Source of the DNA: Oscillospiraceae bacterium
GTDB taxonomy: Bacteria > Bacillota > Clostridia > Oscillospirales > Oscillospiraceae
NCBI GenBank assembly: GCA_017938625.1
Contig: JAGBBD010000018.1
Coordinates: 1 to 40,648, forward strand
Direction of reading: 5' to 3'
Length of the DNA stretch: 40,648 nucleotides
Below, one piece after another: positions 14,775-22,895 of the stretch (within the stretch, counting starts at the first letter, position 1; every line of letters begins with the position of its first letter). The notes under the pieces were generated by a model. It did no database searches, had not been told where the DNA came from, and saw only the letters and a program-made list of their open reading frames with translations. The translations under genes were made by a program, and so were the position numbers.

Positions 14775-14840
14775 CAATAATTGACGGAATATAATGCAGG
14801 AAGTCAAAACGAAGGGTATAATGCGGGCGAGGGTGATTCT

Positions 14841-15764
14841 ATGTTCGGGTATGAAAAGTACAAGCTTTCCAGAATAGTCACCGTGCAGGAGATCGTCTCG
14901 GCAGACTTGATGCGTGTGCCGAGGAAGCGCTCTTTGCGCCATACCCATGCGGAGGCCTGGGAGCTTTGCTGCTGCATCCGCGGGCAGATGGAGGTGGAGC
15001 GGGGCGAAACGGTCACCATTGTGCAGGAGGGAGAAGTTCTTCTGATCTCTCCCGGTGTGGAGCATGCCCCTGTCACCAAATGCAAGGGCGATGTGGCGCT
15101 GGTGGTGTCCTTCACCTGCACCAACTCAGAGCACCTGCGCCCTTTGCAGGAAGTCATCTCCGATATGGCAGAGGAGAGCATCCCCATTGCCAACAAGATC
15201 GTGGCGGAGCTGGAAGCGTCCTTTATGCACAACCGCGGGGCCTATAGGCTGCATTTACTCCACTTTGTGCCGAGTCTGGATACGCCCCTTGGAGCGGAGC
15301 AGCTGGTTTGCTGCTATTTGGAGCAGCTTCTGATTCTGCTTTTGCGGCAGGTGACCATGGAAAAAGGCGCTGTGGTGCGCACGGATTATTTCAAGAAAGC
15401 CATGCAGGGCTATCTTGTGGAGCAGGTGGATGATTATATCGTCCGGCATATCAGAAAGCGGCTGACCGTGGAGGAGATCGCGGAGTATTTTCACTACAGC
15501 CGCACACGGCTATCCACGGTCTATAAGCAGATCAAGGGCATCGGCATCAATGACTCCATCACCCAGGAGCAGCTGCGGCAGGCAAAGATCCTGCTGACCA
15601 ACACGGATAAATCCATTACCCAGATCGCGGAGGAGTTGGGGTTCTCTTCGCCTCAGTATTTTTCCAGAAAGTTTACCAAAAAGGTGGGCGTTGCGCCATC
15701 CCATTACGCCCAGAACCGTTCTCTCCATGACCGCCCTCTGGTGGAAGAGCACACAACGGAATAA
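14841..15764 (+). CDS. AraC family transcriptional regulator with N-terminal cupin domain
   Basis: A predicted DNA-binding activator (307 aa). The N-terminal half is a cupin-like sensor starting at LRHTHAEAWEL, with a glycine-rich turn at IRGQMEV and SPGVEHAP. The C-terminal ~100 residues hold two helix-turn-helix units, LTVEEIAEYFHYSRTRLSTVYK and ITQIAEELGFSSPQYFSRKFTK, followed by the VAPSHYAQ end motif. The start ATG 14841 is chosen because GAGGGTGA lies just upstream; an earlier TTG at 14781 has none. TATAAT sequences occur at 14790 and 14817, but no clear -35 pairs with them. The gene is divergent from the M20 operon and convergent with the glycyl-radical genes, so it is the likely local regulator of the catabolic island, sensing an unknown small molecule. 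Confidence 0.9.
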   Translation: MFGYEKYKLSRIVTVQEIVSADLMRVPRKRSLRHTHAEAWELCCCIRGQMEVERGETVTIVQEGEVLLISPGVEHAPVTKCKGDVALVVSFTCTNSEHLRPLQEVISDMAEESIPIANKIVAELEASFMHNRGAYRLHLLHFVPSLDTPLGAEQLVCCYLEQLLILLLRQVTMEKGAVVRTDYFKKAMQGYLVEQVDDYIVRHIRKRLTVEEIAEYFHYSRTRLSTVYKQIKGIGINDSITQEQLRQAKILLTNTDKSITQIAEELGFSSPQYFSRKFTKKVGVAPSHYAQNRSLHDRPLVEEHTTE

Positions 15765-15765
15765 G

Positions 15766-15824
15766 AAAAAGCCACGGATCAGGCGGTTACGCTTAGGGAT
15801 AAACCGCCTGATCCGTGGCTTTTT
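15766..15824. terminator. Long bidirectional terminator between AraC and the GRE activase
   Basis: A perfect 23-bp stem (15766-15788 with 15802-15824), a 13-base loop and A5/T5 feet. It begins one base after the AraC stop codon, and its last base is the final base of the activase stop codon. Confidence 0.93.
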
Positions 15825-16729
15825 TAAAAACTGCAGGGGATGCCGCAGATGCGCTCCAGAAAAGAAGAGAGCGCTTCCATTTGTGCATCGGACTGGGTGT
15901 GATCGGAAAATGCCGAAAAGGGTTTTTCCAGAGCCTCATATTTGGAGGCGGCAAGGAAGTTGTATTTCAGCAGCTCCACCTGCCTGACACCGGGGCCAAG
16001 GGATTGGAGGATTTCCCCAAAACCCATAAAATCCGCTTCTGTGTCATTCACCCCGGGAATGACCGGGATGCGCACGATGATATTGTGGTGACACCTTGAA
16101 AGCTTTTGGAGGTTTTCCAGGATCAGCCCATTGGACTGCCCGGTGAAACGGCGGTGCTTTTCTGCATCAGCAAGCTTCAGATCAGCATAGAACAGATCTA
16201 TGTGGGGCAGAACTTTTTGGATGTTTTCCCACGGGACGAACAAGGCGCTCTCCAAGGCGGTGGAGATCCCAAGGTCGTGACACTTGGCGGCTGCCTGTGC
16301 CACGGAATCTGCCTGCAGCAGACATTCACCGCCGGAAAAGGTCACGCCGCCGCTGGAGGCTTCATAATAGGCGCGATCCTTTTGGATCTCTGCAAGCAAT
16401 TCCTCTGTGGTCAGTTCCTCCCCGCAGACAGTAAGCGCCAGAGAGGGGCAAGAGGCGGCGCAGCTGCCGCAGCGGGCGCAGCCATCGCGGGAAAAGACCA
16501 TATCATTGCCGACCACCGTGTGATGGGCGGGACAGATTTCCACGCAGGCGCCGCAGTGGATGCATTTGCTTGGGTGATAGAGAAGCTCCTTTTTCGGTGA
16601 CAGAGTCTCCGGGTTGTGGCACCAGCTGCAGCGGAGCAAGCAGCCTTTATAATAGATCACAGTTCTGACGCCCGGCCCATCGTGCAAAGAACCGCGGGAG
16701 ATGTTGGTGATCAGGGCGGTTACAGACAT
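15824..16729 (-). CDS. Glycyl-radical enzyme activating enzyme (radical SAM)
   Basis: A 301-aa radical SAM protein that should install the glycyl radical in the GRE encoded next to it. Cys30, Cys34 and Cys37 (CLLRCSWC) bind the catalytic [4Fe-4S] cluster. A ferredoxin insert follows with two further clusters: CIHCGACVEICP (C56-C66) and CARCGSCAASCP (C84-C94). This insert is usual for activases of non-PFL GREs such as dehydratases and decarboxylases. GGVTFSGGECLLQ is the glycine-rich SAM-binding motif. ATG 16729 overlaps the GRE stop codon by 10 bases, which implies translational coupling. The pairing with an intact GRE makes the role secure, although the GRE substrate is unknown. Confidence 0.95.
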   Translation of the reverse strand: MSVTALITNISRGSLHDGPGVRTVIYYKGCLLRCSWCHNPETLSPKKELLYHPSKCIHCGACVEICPAHHTVVGNDMVFSRDGCARCGSCAASCPSLALTVCGEELTTEELLAEIQKDRAYYEASSGGVTFSGGECLLQADSVAQAAAKCHDLGISTALESALFVPWENIQKVLPHIDLFYADLKLADAEKHRRFTGQSNGLILENLQKLSRCHHNIIVRIPVIPGVNDTEADFMGFGEILQSLGPGVRQVELLKYNFLAASKYEALEKPFSAFSDHTQSDAQMEALSSFLERICGIPCSF

Positions 16730-19368
16730 GTGTGCTTTGTCCTTCCGATGATATGATCCTGCAGCTCCTCCGACAGGAGATTGAACTTCTGGCTGAAGCC
16801 GGAAACACGGACAGCCAGATTGTTGTATTTTTCCGGATACTTTTTGGCGTCGATCAGGGTGTCTGCATCAATGGTGTTAAACTGCACATTTTCAAGCCCG
16901 TTTGCCGCCGCGCCAAGGAGAATGTCGGCCAGCAGAGGGATGTTCCTGTCTGTAAACAGTTTTGGATCCACTTCCACAATGGCGGAGGTCGTGCCCGGTG
17001 TGCGTGTGGTGGGGAGCTTTGCGATGGAATTGAGCAGAGCCGTCAGTCCATTGAAATCCCGCCCCTGCATGGGAGAGACGCTGTAAGCAATGATCTCGCC
17101 GCTGCGTCTGCCGTCCGGTGTGGCGGCGGTTTCTCTGCCGCGATCGACCATCCACCAGAAGGTAAAGGGCTGGGCGTGGAAGGACAGCTCATATTTGCGG
17201 GAGAGTTCATCCAGCGCGTCGCAGGCCGTATGGATCAGCTCTGTGGCAAGAGAATCGACACTTTCGATGTCATTGCCGAATTTTGCTGCTTTGTTCATAA
17301 ACTCCATCCGAACGCGCTCGTCCGGATAGTTCTGCTGCAAAATATCCTTCAGCTCCTGCAGGGTGTATGTTTTCTGCTTATATACAAATTCCCGGATGAC
17401 CTCCAGCGAATCGGCAAGATTGGGGATGCCGTCAAGCATGATCTGATAGTAGTCGTAGACGGCGCCTGCATCGTTGAAATCCCGTCCGCTTTCCAGACAC
17501 CCCCGGGTCAGCAGGGACTTATAGGGCTTGGGGGACCGATGCACAGAGTATTCCCTGTATTTTTTCACCTTGGAGCAGGTCAGGTCCAGCAGATGATACA
17601 TCTGTGCTTTGACAGCAGTGAAGAATTTCTCAAAGGTGTCAAAGGATGAAAGACAGCCTGTTTCCGCGCCGGGGAACAAATCGGGGTGCAGCATACTGTG
17701 ACCGTTGCAGAAAACATATTCCAGGGTTTTCAGAACATTGGCTTCGCCGGTGACGGCATGGGGGTTGGACTTGCCGGGGATCACCGTTTCCACGCAGCCG
17801 ATCTGGGTGTAGTCATGGGCGTCTTCTTTGCTGATACCCTTACTCATGAGCGCCGGGATCATCACGTCGTCATTGAAGAAAAAGGGAACACCCTTCTGTA
17901 CATGACCGACTACCTCCAGCGCGCGCTTGATAAATTCCTTTTCCGTGTTTTTGGAAAAACGCACGGACATACACCGGATGATGTTGAGCTGTTCTGTGGC
18001 TTCCAGCATCATGTAGGAAAGCTCATTGACATCGCTGCTGCCGTCGGGAGCTGTGCCGCCCACGCAGGACTGCTGCACGTCGTAGTTCCGGTACAGCTTC
18101 AGCCACAGGCAGCAGATCAGCTCAAAGGCTTCTTCCTTTGTCAGGATTCCTTGTTCCAGATCCCGCTTGTAGTAGGGGTAGAGGATCTGATCCAGTCTGC
18201 CGAGGGAGTTGGCGTTGATAAAGTCCTCCCAGGTGTTGACGATATGGGCAAACCACAGAGCCTGCACAGCTTCCCGGAAGGTGGTCGCAGGATGCTCCGG
18301 AACACGGGAGCAGGTTTCTATGATCTGCTCCAGATCTTTTTGCTGATAGGCATCGCTGCCGGCATCTTTCAGCTCCTTTGCAGCCTGTGCGTACTTATGG
18401 CCCATCTGGCAGGCAGCTTCGCAGATGCACTTCATGGTGGCGTACATGGGATTTTCGCCGTTCTTCGCCTCGAATGCTTCCACCCTTTCCAGAAGGCCCC
18501 GGAAGCCGAGCCGCAGCACCTGCTCATAGCCGATGACTGTGTGGTTGGAATCGATGTTTCGCACGATGGAGGAAAAATCCTCGGTGGAATCCAGTTCCTG
18601 CTGCGTGGGCGGGGTACTGACCGTATGAGCAAAATCGATCAGAGGCTTTCTGTATTCAAACAGCAGCTCCTTACTGGGGTCTTTCTGATATTGGAAGTAT
18701 TCCTCCAGCACCTGCTCCCTGATGCCGTTTTCTTTGGCAAGGGCACGATGCTCCGGTGTATCCTGTGGGGCAAAGCGCTCTTCATATTTTGTATCGGGGT
18801 GGTTGAAGCCGACGATCAGCTCACCGGGGATGATCACAGGAGAAAACTCCCGCAAAATGCTGCAAAGACCTTCGCCGATGATCTGCATTTGCGTGCAGCC
18901 GCGCTCTGCGGCATGGATCCTGCCAAGGGTGGAATATACCTGCCGCTGGATGCAGTATTTGTCCTCATAGTCATTGCATGAGGTCACAAGCTGCCGCAGC
19001 AGCTCACAGCGGTCTGTCAGAGGGTACATGGTATCCTTTCTCCTTTCGTAATATTGCTTTGTCTGCTGCTCAAGCCGTTTGTATTCCCGGGGCAGACAGC
19101 CGTATTGGGCAAGAAACGCTTTGTCGAAACCGCCCAGTGTGTCATAGCCGTAGGCCGTGGCCACATCCGTCACCTTTTTGCCGGAGAGAATATCCACGGC
19201 AGCCAGCTGCAGGCGGTAATGCCGCACGTATTTTACAAAGGACTTTCCGGTGTATTCATGGAATTTCGAACAAAAATGCCACTTGGAATAGCCGAAACGG
19301 TCAGCCAGTTCTGTCAAATTCAAGGTATCGCCAATATGATCGTGGATATATTTCAGCACTTCAAACAT
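16720..19368 (-). CDS. AraC-type DNA-binding domain fused to a glycyl-radical enzyme
   Basis: An 882-aa fusion. Residues 1-~100 are a complete AraC/XylS DNA-binding domain with two helix-turn-helix units (LNLTELADRFGYSKWHFCSKF, residues ~16-36, and VTDVATAYGYDTLGGFDKAF, ~66-85). After a short linker, residues 114-882 are a full-length GRE. Its active-site motif is GCVE (Cys525 for the thiyl radical, Glu527 as general base), and the C-terminal radical motif is RVSGF, with Gly857 as radical site. GCxE is typical of eliminase-type GREs (dehydratases, C-N or C-S lyases) and some decarboxylases rather than pyruvate formate-lyase. ATG 19368 has GGAGGTG upstream. An internal ATG at 19029 (Met114) is also preceded by AAGGAG, so a GRE-only product of 769 aa may be made too. 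The family substrate is not assigned. Confidence 0.93.
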   Translation of the reverse strand: MFEVLKYIHDHIGDTLNLTELADRFGYSKWHFCSKFHEYTGKSFVKYVRHYRLQLAAVDILSGKKVTDVATAYGYDTLGGFDKAFLAQYGCLPREYKRLEQQTKQYYERRKDTMYPLTDRCELLRQLVTSCNDYEDKYCIQRQVYSTLGRIHAAERGCTQMQIIGEGLCSILREFSPVIIPGELIVGFNHPDTKYEERFAPQDTPEHRALAKENGIREQVLEEYFQYQKDPSKELLFEYRKPLIDFAHTVSTPPTQQELDSTEDFSSIVRNIDSNHTVIGYEQVLRLGFRGLLERVEAFEAKNGENPMYATMKCICEAACQMGHKYAQAAKELKDAGSDAYQQKDLEQIIETCSRVPEHPATTFREAVQALWFAHIVNTWEDFINANSLGRLDQILYPYYKRDLEQGILTKEEAFELICCLWLKLYRNYDVQQSCVGGTAPDGSSDVNELSYMMLEATEQLNIIRCMSVRFSKNTEKEFIKRALEVVGHVQKGVPFFFNDDVMIPALMSKGISKEDAHDYTQIGCVETVIPGKSNPHAVTGEANVLKTLEYVFCNGHSMLHPDLFPGAETGCLSSFDTFEKFFTAVKAQMYHLLDLTCSKVKKYREYSVHRSPKPYKSLLTRGCLESGRDFNDAGAVYDYYQIMLDGIPNLADSLEVIREFVYKQKTYTLQELKDILQQNYPDERVRMEFMNKAAKFGNDIESVDSLATELIHTACDALDELSRKYELSFHAQPFTFWWMVDRGRETAATPDGRRSGEIIAYSVSPMQGRDFNGLTALLNSIAKLPTTRTPGTTSAIVEVDPKLFTDRNIPLLADILLGAAANGLENVQFNTIDADTLIDAKKYPEKYNNLAVRVSGFSQKFNLLSEELQDHIIGRTKHTCL
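19029..19045 (-). promoter_or_regulatory. Internal ribosome site and start for the GRE-only product
   Basis: On the reverse strand AAGGAG (19045-19040) lies 10 bases before an in-frame ATG at 19029, with a second AAAGGA (19039-19034) 4 bases before it. The ATG is exactly at the linker between the AraC domain and the start of the GRE fold, as expected for a former separate gene start. Confidence 0.65.
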
Positions 19369-19469
19369 ACGGACACCTCCAATTGTAATTAAAACAAAGA
19401 TCCAAAGAAAAATCTACTCCGGAATTGCTGCTCTTTATGAAAGTTTGCAGGGTGTCATTGCAGGCGTGA

Positions 19470-19560: not shown

Positions 19561-20718
19561 GTGATCTACAATGATTTTAAGGGACTGTCCCTGTCTCGGC
19601 TTGGCTTCGGCACCATGCGCCTGCCTATGGCAGACGGGAAAATAGACGAAGCACAGGTGCAGCAGATGGTGGACTATGCCATGGCCAATGGCGTCAACTA
19701 TTTTGACACGGCCTATCCCTACCACGAGGGTGAGTCGGAGCGGGTCATCGGCAGGTGTCTTGCCAAGTATGACAGAAGCAGCTACTATCTTGCCACCAAA
19801 TATCCCGGTCATCAAATCGCCGAGCGGTACGATCCGGCGGAGATCTTTGAAAAGCAACTAAAAAAGTGCGGTGTGGAGTATTTTGACTTCTATTTGCTGC
19901 ACAATATCTACGAAAAATCCGTCGATGTGTATCTGGATCCCCAGTGGGGTATCGTGGAGTATTTTGTGGAGCAAAAGCGCCTCGGACGCATCAAGCATCT
20001 TGGCTTCAGCACCCATGCAAGACTGGATACGCTGGAGCGCTTCCTGGATGCCTGCGGTGAGCATATGGAGTTCTGCCAGATTCAGCTCAACTATGTGGAC
20101 TGGACGCTGCAGAAGGCAAAGTCCAAATGTGCTCTGCTCCGTCGGCGCGGCATCCCGGTCTGGGTCATGGAACCTGTCCGCGGCGGCAAGCTGGTGAGCC
20201 TGCCGGGAGAGGAGAAGCTCCATGCCCTGCGTCCCGAGGAAAAAACGGTTGCATGGGCATTCCGTTTCCTGCAGGGTCTGGATGAAGTGAAAATGACCCT
20301 GAGCGGGATGTCCAATATGCAGCAGATGATGGAAAATATTGCGACCTATGAAGAGGCAAAGCCTTTGACCCGGGAAGAGCAGCAGGTGCTGCTGGAGCTG
20401 GCAGAGGGCATCAAGGGCAGCATTCCCTGTACCGCCTGCCGCTATTGCTGCGACAGCTGTCCCCAGGGGCTGGATATTCCGCTGCTCATGAATGTGTGTA
20501 ACGACCTGCAGGTGCAGGAGAGCTTCAACGTGACCATGGCGGTGGAGGCACTGCCGGAGGACAAGCGGCCTCAGGCATGCATCGCCTGCGGCGCATGTAA
20601 AAAGATGTGCCCCCAGAATATTGATATCCCCAAGTACATGGATCAGATCACCCAGGCAATGAAACGCATTCCCAGTTGGGAAGCCATCTGTCGCCAGAGA
20701 GCTGCGGCACAGGAATAA
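19561..20718 (+). CDS. Aldo/keto reductase with C-terminal two-[4Fe-4S] ferredoxin domain
   Basis: A cytosolic oxidoreductase (385 aa). The N-terminal ~270 residues are an aldo/keto reductase barrel with the catalytic tetrad Asp49, Tyr54, Lys80 and His114. The C-terminal part adds two ferredoxin-like cluster motifs, starting at Cys290 (CTACRYCCDSCP) and Cys340 (CIACGACKKMCP). This architecture is known from anaerobes (COG1453 type) and suggests electron exchange with ferredoxin. It starts with GTG 19561, with AAAGGAGG 7 bases upstream. It is the first of three genes with the alcohol dehydrogenase and the Gfo/Idh/MocA enzyme. In context it may reduce, or rearrange the redox state of, the carbonyl product of the neighbouring GRE pathway. 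The substrate is not known. Confidence 0.92.
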   Translation: MIYNDFKGLSLSRLGFGTMRLPMADGKIDEAQVQQMVDYAMANGVNYFDTAYPYHEGESERVIGRCLAKYDRSSYYLATKYPGHQIAERYDPAEIFEKQLKKCGVEYFDFYLLHNIYEKSVDVYLDPQWGIVEYFVEQKRLGRIKHLGFSTHARLDTLERFLDACGEHMEFCQIQLNYVDWTLQKAKSKCALLRRRGIPVWVMEPVRGGKLVSLPGEEKLHALRPEEKTVAWAFRFLQGLDEVKMTLSGMSNMQQMMENIATYEEAKPLTREEQQVLLELAEGIKGSIPCTACRYCCDSCPQGLDIPLLMNVCNDLQVQESFNVTMAVEALPEDKRPQACIACGACKKMCPQNIDIPKYMDQITQAMKRIPSWEAICRQRAAAQE

Positions 20719-20730
20719 GGAGGAATTTCT

Positions 20731-21927
20731 ATGAGCAACATTTTCGGATACTATTCTCCCACCAAAGTGGTCTTTGGAAAGGACGCCCATCTGCAGGTGG
20801 CGCAGCTGATCAAGGAACAGGGCTGCAAAAAAGTGCTGCTGCACTACGGAAGCCAGTCCGCCAAAAAGACCGGACTTCTCGATACCATTGAAAACTGCCT
20901 CCGCGAGGGCGGTGTTGACTATGTGGAGCTGGGAGGCGTCGTGCCAAACCCCAGACTGGGCAAGGTCTATGAAGGCATCGAGCTTTGCAGAAAAGAGGGG
21001 GTGGACTTTATCCTTGCCGTGGGCGGCGGCAGCACCATCGACAGCGCCAAGGCCATTGCCTACGGTCTTGCCAATGAGGGCGATGTGTGGGATCTGTACC
21101 GCCATGTGAAGCATGCAACGGCATGCCTGCCTGTGGCGTCCGTCCTGACCATTGCGGCAGCCGGCAGCGAGACCAGCAACGGCAGTGTCATCACCAACGA
21201 GAAGACCGGCGAAAAGAGAGCCTATGACAGCGATCTGAGCCGCCCCAAATTTGCCATTATGAACCCGGAGCTGACCATGACCCTGCCCGACTACCAGACC
21301 CAGTCCGGCTGCGTGGATATCCTCATGCACACCATGGAGCGCTGGTTCAGCGGCGCGCCGTGCATGGAGATCACCGATCGTGTGGCAGCGGCTGTTTTGA
21401 AGACGGTCATGGAAAATGCAAAGATCCTGTACAAGGATCCCAAGAACTATGCCGCCCGTGCCGAGGTCATGTGGAGCGGCAGTATCTCCCACAACGGTCT
21501 GACCGGCTTCGGCAATGACGGCGGTGACTGGACCTGCCACAATATGGAGCATGAGCTGGGCGGTATGTTCGATGTTGCCCACGGTGCAGGTCTTGCAGCT
21601 GTCTGGGGCAGCTGGGCAAGATATGTGTGCAAATATAATCTGCCCAGATTTGTCAAGTATGCCCTCCATGTGATGGGTGTAGAGCCGGGTGCTACCGACG
21701 AAGAAACCGCTCTGCGCGGCATCGAGGCACAGGAAGACTTCTATCGCAGCATCGGCATGCCCACCAATCTGAAGGAGCTGGGCGTCGCCCCCACCGAAGA
21801 GCAGATGCACGTGATGGCAAAGGGCTGCGCCGAAGCAGGCGGCGGACAGCAGGGCTCCATTAAAGTTCTGTATGAAGAGGATCTGTTTGAGATCTACAAG
21901 CTGGCAAACAAGGAGAATGAAGCATGA
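20731..21927 (+). CDS. Iron-type (group III) alcohol dehydrogenase
   Basis: An NAD(P)-dependent alcohol/aldehyde oxidoreductase (398 aa), cytosolic. The nucleotide-binding loop is GGGSTIDSAK (residues 98-107). The metal ligands are Asp196, His200, His270 and His284, in GCVDILMH, TCHNMEHE and VAHGAG. It resembles the butanol dehydrogenase/YqhD branch. ATG 20731 has GGAGG upstream, 12 bases after the aldo/keto reductase, and its stop overlaps the next start (ATGA). Many GRE loci carry such an enzyme to reduce the aldehyde released by radical elimination, so this is its likely role here. Confidence 0.93.
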   Translation: MSNIFGYYSPTKVVFGKDAHLQVAQLIKEQGCKKVLLHYGSQSAKKTGLLDTIENCLREGGVDYVELGGVVPNPRLGKVYEGIELCRKEGVDFILAVGGGSTIDSAKAIAYGLANEGDVWDLYRHVKHATACLPVASVLTIAAAGSETSNGSVITNEKTGEKRAYDSDLSRPKFAIMNPELTMTLPDYQTQSGCVDILMHTMERWFSGAPCMEITDRVAAAVLKTVMENAKILYKDPKNYAARAEVMWSGSISHNGLTGFGNDGGDWTCHNMEHELGGMFDVAHGAGLAAVWGSWARYVCKYNLPRFVKYALHVMGVEPGATDEETALRGIEAQEDFYRSIGMPTNLKELGVAPTEEQMHVMAKGCAEAGGGQQGSIKVLYEEDLFEIYKLANKENEA

Positions 21928-22895
21928 GTATGGTCAATTGGGGCGTTCTTGGCACAGCCGGTATTGCCAGAGGCTGTACCATTCCGGGTATGCAGCAGGC
22001 AGAGCATTGCAATCTGTATGCCATTGCCGGAAGAAGCATGGAAAAGGCACAGGCCTATAAAGAAGAGTTTGGCTTTGAAGTAGCCTATGACAGCTACGAG
22101 GCCTTGCTGGCAGACCCGGCTGTGGAGGCAGTCTATATCCCGCTGCCCAACCAGCTGCACTATGAGTGGGCCATCAAAGCCATGCAGGCAGGACTGCACG
22201 TTCTGTGCGAAAAGCCTCTTGCCCCCACAGCCGCCCAGATCGAGGAAATGTTCCGCGTGGCGGAGGAGAACGGCGTGTATCTCATGGAGGCATTTGCCTA
22301 TCTGCACAGCCCTCTGATGGCTGCCATCAAGGAGGATCTGCCCTCTCTGGGCAAGCTCCTGCGTGCAGAGAGTGCGTTCATCACCTCCGATTATGATCTT
22401 TCCAACATCCGTATGCGCCGGGAGACTTACGGCGGCAGCGTCTATGACCTTGGCTGCTACTGCACAAGCCAGATCCTGTGGCTTCTGGAGGAAACCCCTG
22501 AGGCTGTGCAGGCTATGGGCACCTTTACCAAGGAGAAGATCGATAACTTTGCAGCGGCGCTTCTGACCTATCCCGATGGCAAGCATGCCATGCTCCAAAG
22601 CGGTATGGTGCTGGCAACGGAGCAGGACAAGCGCATCGACCGTCTGCAGCTGCACGGTGAAAAGGGCAAGATCGTCTGCCACTGCCGGTTTAACCAGTCC
22701 GGCGATCTGACCTATTCCATCACCACGGATGAGGGGCGTACCGTCCGGGAGGTCCCCACACCGGACAACTATATGCTGGAAACAGAAAACATGAGTCTGT
22801 GCGCCATGGGAAAGGCGAAGCCTCATGTGACCAAGGAGTTTTCCCTCAAAAACGCAAAGCTGCTGGAGCAGATTCTGGAAAAGATCGGCTACTGA
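21924..22895 (+). CDS. Gfo/Idh/MocA family oxidoreductase
   Basis: An NAD(P)-dependent dehydrogenase (323 aa). The N-terminal Rossmann fold starts with WGVLGTAGIARG. The family signature is the lysine of CEKPLA near residue 97, and the C-terminal beta-sheet domain includes GGSVYDLGCYC. ATG 21924 overlaps the upstream TGA stop (ATGA), with AAGGAG 8 bases before, so translation is coupled to the alcohol dehydrogenase. Members usually act on sugars, polyols or inositols. Its place at the end of the reductase operon hints at a polyol- or sugar-like intermediate, but the substrate cannot be read from sequence. Confidence 0.92.
   Translation: MSMVNWGVLGTAGIARGCTIPGMQQAEHCNLYAIAGRSMEKAQAYKEEFGFEVAYDSYEALLADPAVEAVYIPLPNQLHYEWAIKAMQAGLHVLCEKPLAPTAAQIEEMFRVAEENGVYLMEAFAYLHSPLMAAIKEDLPSLGKLLRAESAFITSDYDLSNIRMRRETYGGSVYDLGCYCTSQILWLLEETPEAVQAMGTFTKEKIDNFAAALLTYPDGKHAMLQSGMVLATEQDKRIDRLQLHGEKGKIVCHCRFNQSGDLTYSITTDEGRTVREVPTPDNYMLETENMSLCAMGKAKPHVTKEFSLKNAKLLEQILEKIGY

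Follow-up and report, generated by a model that had tools for sequence, protein, structure and literature searches.

PutA is a trigger enzyme with a DNA-binding domain, a catabolic enzyme that controls its own gene. In the MocR/GabR regulators a GntR DNA-binding domain is joined to an aminotransferase-like domain (PMC5320631), and CsqR (YihW) of E. coli occurs in a long and a short form, the latter starting from Met25 (PMC10991401). Judged from the abstract of the former paper and passages of the latter, MocR and CsqR are the closest in concept to the gene described here, located at 16720..19368 on the minus strand of contig JAGBBD010000018.1 (assembly GCA_017938625.1) from an Oscillospiraceae bacterium; the whole stretch analysed, 40,648 nt in length, is referred to as the window. 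The gene joins an AraC-type double helix-turn-helix (HTH) and a full glycyl-radical enzyme (GRE) in one in-frame chain, and its sequence features make it rather probable that a single gene provides a trigger-enzyme regulator together with that regulator's own enzyme, perhaps in a carbohydrate-linked pathway. Judging by titles and the beginnings of abstracts, no description of an AraC-GRE or any HTH-GRE fusion is present among the matches listed for the open-access literature, which leaves most subscription journals outside, and the passages of PMC5874301 and PMC4207490 contain no AraC-GRE fusion either.

The AraC-type domain and the glycyl-radical enzyme in one frame

The fusion gene extends from an ATG at 19368 to a stop codon ending at 16720 (stop included) and encodes 882 amino acids (aa), as defined by translation of the open reading frame and by Pfam. 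The first-pass annotation, which had reported this fusion, was right about the frame, but its strand needs correction to minus; the plus-strand reading of 16720-19368 in the window is broken by stops. The AraC-type DNA-binding domain comprises residues 1-98 (19075..19368, minus strand; Pfam and substitution rates). HTH_18 is matched at residues 21-98 with 67 bits (cut-off 33.6), giving the double HTH of the AraC/XylS family, and HTH_AraC at residues 8-48, also above its cut-off. The enzyme part has both domains of the GRE superfamily, PFL-like at residues 164-736 (415.9 bits, cut-off 24.3) and Gly_radical at residues 763-863 (75.6 bits, cut-off 22.2); with all these Pfam domains above cut-off, the full double HTH and intact GRE described initially do belong to one chain. 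The catalytic Cys525-Val-Glu527 within GCVET (17788..17796) and Gly857 within RVSGF, the predicted site of the glycyl radical (16798..16800, both on the minus strand), appear in the translation at the residues originally given for them, and Cys525 and Gly857, the residues of a GRE active site, are invariant in the 18 rows of alignment A1 and the 10 rows of alignment A2. The fusion has its own start with a Shine-Dalgarno sequence, GGAGG, at 19376..19380 (minus strand; sequence and 16S pairing). The next gene on the strand, at 15824..16729, encodes a glycyl-radical activating enzyme (activase), a radical SAM protein of 301 aa (TIGR02494, 319.3 bits, cut-off 174.35), and shares 10 nt with the end of the fusion gene; from this adjacency it is predicted that the adjoining activase introduces the glycyl radical into the GRE of the window.

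In proteins of the Rob/RamA/SoxS type the HTH is N-terminal or stands alone. The AraC domain of the fusion is nearest to this type by comparison with NCBIfam models and PDB sequences, with NCBIfam scores below the curated cut-offs, and the contrast drawn at first with AraC proteins carrying a cupin-type sensor was for that reason too strong.

Related loci were collected by scanning genome contigs with six peptide patterns, and further loci came from searches of sampled genomes. The contig scan yielded 31 related loci: both parts share one frame in 19, the GRE is free in 10, and the junction is not covered in the remaining 2; the sampled genomes contributed seven more distinct fused loci (L068, L069, L077, L079, L081, L082, and L084). 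Together with the window, and with the near-identical L010 and L011 both counted, this makes 27 fused loci in nine families of the class (f1, f15, f24, f30, f33, f40, f43, f53, and f64), 25 of them with uninterrupted frames. The other two have a single in-frame TAG in the enzyme part (L012, 7234-7236; L013, 1189-1191), for which decay, sequencing error and recoding are candidates; relatives have intact copies. The searches, whose counts include the window's own genome, found 3 fused loci and one distant GRE among 400 genomes of the family, 4 fused and one free among 394 of the order, 9 fused and 2 free among 391 of the class, and 2 fused among 16 genomes of the family of G1098, while across the phylum the A2 model (E ≤ 1e-200) matched one of 398 genomes, the window's own. 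The fusion is widespread within the class, yet rare. Among the sample titles of the 19 named fused loci of the contig scan, 13 refer to ruminant gut and six name no host.

From the AraC start to the codon equivalent to Met114 the distance is 339 nt (113 codons) in 18 of the 19 fused loci of the contig scan; in the nineteenth, L026, it is shorter by 21 nt (7 codons) and in frame. No match to the AraC part (E ≤ 1e-3) was found at the 12 non-fused loci (10 free, 2 with the junction not covered). An artefact of assembly or sequencing that joined two genes could be suspected, as all 19 named fused loci come from metagenome-assembled genomes (MAGs) and the enzyme part of two loci contains a stop, but the in-frame junction is found in 27 loci and persists down to 36-38% identity. 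The first-pass annotation had named two outcomes that would speak for such an artefact, a fusion confined to this assembly and relatives with two separate genes and a stop between them; the nine families exclude the former, and the latter arrangement was seen at none of the 31 loci of the contig scan. With no close relative showing a stop between the parts, this explanation was rejected, its probability being negligible.

Purifying selection acts on the AraC part. Nine pairs were compared for the ratio of nonsynonymous to synonymous substitution rates (dN/dS) over residues 1-98. It amounts to 0.05 for window/L009 and L014/L028, 0.11 for L024/L025, 0.12 for L020/L021 and L015/L018, 0.13 for L017/L018, and 0.20 for window/L027; L010/L011 show no amino-acid change (dN/dS 0), and window/L010 is saturated, so that no value can be computed. 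The corresponding values for the GRE part are 0.07-0.24 in the computable pairs.

The internal start and the promoter motif

Codon 114 of the fusion gene is an ATG at 19029, from which a free GRE of 769 aa (16720..19029, minus strand) is predicted. This Met is invariant in the 18 of 18 intact fusions of alignment A1, and free relatives start at the equivalent place or no more than a few residues away. It is preceded by the linker, residues 99-113 (..YYERRKDT; 19030..19074, minus strand; alignment A1 and codon counts), the DNA of which is GAAAGGAGAAAGGATACCATG. Within the linker, the Shine-Dalgarno-like GAAAGGAG (19040..19047, minus strand) pairs with the 16S tail at -12.9 kcal/mol, and the gene's 16 other in-frame ATGs all have weaker sites. 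The best Shine-Dalgarno sequence of a Met near the junction has -9.7 to -13.4 kcal/mol in all 23 fusions with CVE and RVSGF, so that a conserved internal in-frame start with a ribosome-binding site is found in 23 of the 27 fusions, including the window. Residue 109 or 110 is encoded by AGG in 17 of the 18 rows of A1, while AGG makes up 0-44% of the Arg codons of the enzyme part over the 20 genes counted (at most 17% in 18 of them, 24% and 44% in the other two). The preference for AGG in the linker despite its low use elsewhere points to selection acting on the DNA and not only on the peptide. Since the internal ATG has a strong ribosome-binding site and free relatives start at the same place, one gene very probably makes both the fusion and the free enzyme. 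The proposal that the enzyme itself takes the position of the sensor should accordingly be narrowed, as it would not apply to every molecule made.

The promoter of the fusion gene contains an operator-like motif, CAGCAATTCCGGAGTAGATTTTT, at 19408..19430 (minus strand; weight matrix and promoter comparison), upstream of a -10-like TTTAAT at 19388..19393 on the same strand, which lies 27 nt from the first G of GGAGT (promoter comparison). The core, GCAAnnnnGGAGTnG, is present near a -10 box with at most one mismatch at 22 of the 27 fused loci versus 1 of 13 free promoters, and the distance from GGAGT to the -10 box, counted by script, is exactly 27 nt in 20 of the 27 fused loci; at L019 it is found in front of the gene preceding the fusion, and L079 has two core mismatches with the 27-nt spacing kept. 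The one exception among the free promoters is a near-match at L030 (5950-6055), scoring below 13 in the weight matrix; because its leader still encodes KERRDTM, as in the fused L022, L030 looks like a fusion deprived of its AraC part. A perfect TTGACA-TATAAT promoter is found at three free loci (L029, L037, and L039); the fused promoters deviate from it by one mismatch at best (L013 and L082) and by 2-5 otherwise.

The weight matrix was built from 21 sites, which by construction score 16.7-33.1 (16.7 at L016); the site at L019, outside the training set, scores 30.9. A block-shuffled control of 510,093 bases gave four matches at 13 or above. A strict pattern gave 25 matches in 20 genomes versus 17 for the reversed control, and 12 of these 25 coincide in position with the promoter of the fusion itself or of its operon. 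Since the other matches are at chance level, the regulator looks local. A loose operator pattern was discarded, being swamped by chance matches; it merely pointed to a second site in genome G811. The motif GCAAnnnnGGAGTnG is the probable operator of the fusion. Its position over the -35 region resembles what we take to be the arrangement of activator sites of MarA-type proteins, and the guess that activation is likelier than repression is derived from this likeness.

Fusions with altered motifs

The 27 fusions were tabulated by their best start near the junction, Cys-x-Glu motif, RVSGF motif and adjoining activase. Four of them have altered motifs, with CAG and GVSGF in L069, CVE and NVSGF in L081, CSG and AVSGF in L082, and CIE and NISGY in L084. 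All four keep the AraC domain and none has a strong internal start; L069 retains the internal ATG, whose site reaches only -4.8 kcal/mol, and L081, L082, and L084, which have intact frames and a long GRE part, have no Met at the place of the internal start and hence no free form. No activase adjoins any of the four, while one adjoins 18 of the 27 fused loci. In G1098 (85% complete), the genome of L081 and L082, no activase match was found at E ≤ 1e-30; the six other genomes in the same search have a match, which for L069 and L084 lies elsewhere, on other contigs. The free form thus accompanies intact catalytic motifs, and the fusion persists without them (Fisher p 5.7e-5 for altered motifs versus loss of the internal start over the 27 fusions, a value that ignores descent). 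L069 groups with L077 in the GRE tree with a support of 100, their GREs being 70% identical; L077 keeps the motifs, the internal start and the adjoining activase, and the dN/dS of the GRE part for this pair is 0.087 at near-saturated dS. It is also worth mentioning that G1098 harbours two fused paralogues, L081 and L082, with GRE parts only 37% identical.

As the altered fusions keep the AraC part and have neither the internal start nor the adjoining activase, the fusion seems to serve regulation, a role that can be separated from catalysis, and some relatives resemble regulators in whose enzyme part the active site has changed. Instead, the four divergent fusions might carry out another radical chemistry that needs no free form, in which case the changes in their motifs would say nothing about regulation. 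Such a chemistry would be compatible with the retention of Cys525 and Gly857 in L069, L081, and L082 (alignment A2), with the GCIEP and NISGY of L084, and with the Cys-x-Glu kept in two of the four, but the Arg of RVSGF and the adjoining activase are lost, G1098 yields no activase match and L082 is no longer matched by the Pfam model Gly_radical at E ≤ 1e-3; altogether this explanation appears unlikely.

The enzyme part also occurs alone. In a GRE tree of 26 fused and 13 free loci (L084 was left out), fused and free branches are mixed, which takes seven changes, at least five of them forced by starred branches. Linker remnants in free relatives, KERRDTM in L030 and ..REER.. in L031/L033, suggest that two lineages or more have lost the AraC part; an early fusion followed by later losses is our own reading of the tree and not a result. 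The dispensability of the AraC part in some lineages, these remnants and the strong internal start would all suit an AraC part that is a DNA tether or relic, tolerated because the free GRE is the useful product. Yet the AraC part is constrained (dN/dS 0.05-0.20) and has its own start with a Shine-Dalgarno sequence in most loci, the operator is conserved, and it is the AraC part and not the internal start that the altered fusions kept, which leaves a relic very improbable.

Neighbouring genes, proposed mechanism and known systems

Only the activase gene recurs widely beside the fusions in a clustering of neighbours, and what else is found there hints at a carbohydrate setting. In G811, a second site (L091, score 17.9) precedes a gene for an extracellular ABC solute-binding lipoprotein, with a -10 box, read by eye, about 27 nt away; this possible target is a lead. 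The lipoprotein has no Pfam family and shows partial matches to PDB sequences of family 1 solute-binding proteins and AlgQ1, and its 49% identical homologue is encoded directly behind the altered fusion L069. Genes for MGH1/trehalase-like glycosidases, 63% identical, follow L081 and L084. The fusion L079 and its activase belong to a same-strand run (L090) with genes for a GH38 mannosidase, a class II aldolase and a URO-D-family protein, and the free GRE of L023 adjoins RpiB and GH92 genes. In the window, a run divergent from the fusion (19561-22895) encodes an aldo/keto reductase (AKR) with a ferredoxin-like C-terminus, an iron alcohol dehydrogenase (Fe-ADH) and a GFO/IDH oxidoreductase. It was dismissed as a set of partners, as the clustering placed AKR and Fe-ADH beside no other locus; one gene of the run clusters with a gene of L026 that is far from the L026 fusion. 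Just past the activase, at 14781-15764 on the plus strand, lies a gene for a conventional cupin-AraC regulator with a homologue in the same place in L009 (80% identical), where cupin-AraC, amidohydrolase and MFS genes are found beyond the activase as in the window.

The GRE of the window scores 405.1 bits with TIGR01774 (PFL2/glycerol dehydratase), below the cut-off of 678.2, and is placed outside this family. The named GRE equivalogs are likewise all below cut-off among the 25 of 29 families shown (HypD, 355.8 versus 1100; CutC, sulfopropanediol dehydratase, indoleacetate and hydroxyphenylacetate decarboxylases, and formate C-acetyltransferases). The nearest solved sequences are GREs of the glycerol/diol dehydratase type (PDB 5i2a/5i2g and 1r8w/1r9d). 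INANS and HAV of the window, the latter within the stretch GCVETVIPGKSNPHA, align to GHSIS and WHD of 1r8w, which we take to be substrate contacts; as these positions differ and the score is below the cut-off, diol/glycerol dehydratase was rejected and no reaction or substrate is assigned. The genome of the window (2.25 Mb in 68 contigs, 71% complete) contains a single further GRE match, 30% identical. This distant GRE (L002, G000:C63:114880-117463) has the motif TCVEI and is adjoined by an activase match.

In the mechanism that we propose, translation from the upstream start would give a single-chain regulator consisting of an AraC-type DNA-binding domain on a dimerising GRE fold, and the GRE fold of this long form would bind a substrate or product of the pathway. 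Initiation at codon 114 would give the free enzyme, charged with its glycyl radical by the neighbouring activase. The long form would bind GCAAnnnnGGAGTnG, overlapping the -35 region of its own promoter, and in some genomes perhaps also the promoters of carbohydrate-uptake genes; transcription would be set by the ligand on the enzyme domain, with activation likelier than repression. The trigger enzyme suggested by the first-pass annotation finds partial support in the constraint on the AraC part, the operator-like motif and the altered fusions with intact frames; that the enzyme domain senses its ligand, and that the ligand is sugar-derived, we infer. A more far-reaching version can be offered tentatively, with the balance leaning slightly against it. 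The GRE fold would be the sensor of a transcription factor, the ancestral gene giving both sensor and catalyst and the regulator reading the substrate or the radical state, and at least two lineages would have kept a pure ligand sensor for carbohydrate genes without catalysis, internal start or activase, in the manner of the MocR aminotransferase folds.

GREs are dimers. The GRE part could therefore be a mere dimer platform, with the free enzyme titrating the long form into heterodimers, i.e., an autoregulation by dose without any ligand. That one gene can give both forms, that the operator stands at the fusion's own promoter and that other matches in the genomes are at control level would agree with this, but in L081, L082, and L084 there is no free form for such titration and the long GRE part is kept nevertheless, which a mere platform would hardly need, and the solute-binding and glycosidase genes beside some fusions hint at a ligand-linked regulon. 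Regulation by dose is therefore considered improbable compared with the trigger-enzyme regulator.

Several observations weigh against the trigger-enzyme regulator as proposed. The link between loss of motifs and loss of the internal start comprises four loci with only two to three independent events, L081 and L084 being close and L082 coming from the genome of L081; the energy threshold for an internal start was set after the values had been seen, and the MAG of L069 is 7% contaminated. Of the intact fusions, five (L016, L018, L024, L025, and L026) also have no adjoining activase, so its absence alone is not diagnostic. L079, L081, L082, and L084 have no matrix match of 13 or above before the fusion gene, five chance-like matches of 13.6-19.0 lie away from fusion promoters, the second site of L091 is no better than these, and strict-pattern matches away from the fusion promoter do not outnumber those of the reversed control. 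The origin of all 19 named fused loci of the contig scan in MAGs and the TAG codons of L012 and L013 belong here as well.

Conversion of an enzyme into a regulator is usually argued from finished cases, and here one gene family appears to show the stages, from a free enzyme through a fusion accompanied by a free enzyme to a fusion with an altered active site. That altered motifs go together with loss of the internal start is a prediction open to direct test, and if the long form senses, the substrate of the GRE could be found through the effect of ligands on DNA binding, giving a handle on uncharacterised GREs.

Among separate proteins, the closest AraC domains are those of the Rob/RamA/SoxS type, which have no enzyme domain. 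GREs of the glycerol/diol dehydratase type share Cys-x-Glu, the glycyl-radical loop and an adjoining activase with the GRE of the window, which differs from them in its TIGR01774 score and in INANS/HAV in place of GHSIS/WHD. PutA, a catabolic enzyme, resembles the proposed fusion in controlling its own gene as well, but it has another DNA-binding fold and one product, whereas two products, one of them a free glycyl-radical enzyme, are predicted here. Like the fusion, MocR/GabR regulators combine a DNA-binding domain and a whole enzyme fold in one chain, there used as the sensor, but both the DNA-binding family and the enzyme fold are different, 23 of the 27 AraC-GRE fusions keep both catalytic motifs, and an internal start giving a free enzyme, such as is predicted for AraC-GRE, does not appear in the abstract of the source (PMC5320631). 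CsqR, according to passages of its description, shares with the fusion two in-frame starts in one regulator gene and a conserved internal Met; its short form lacks 24 residues of the regulator, whereas the predicted short form of AraC-GRE is a free enzyme without any of the DNA-binding domain (PMC10991401).

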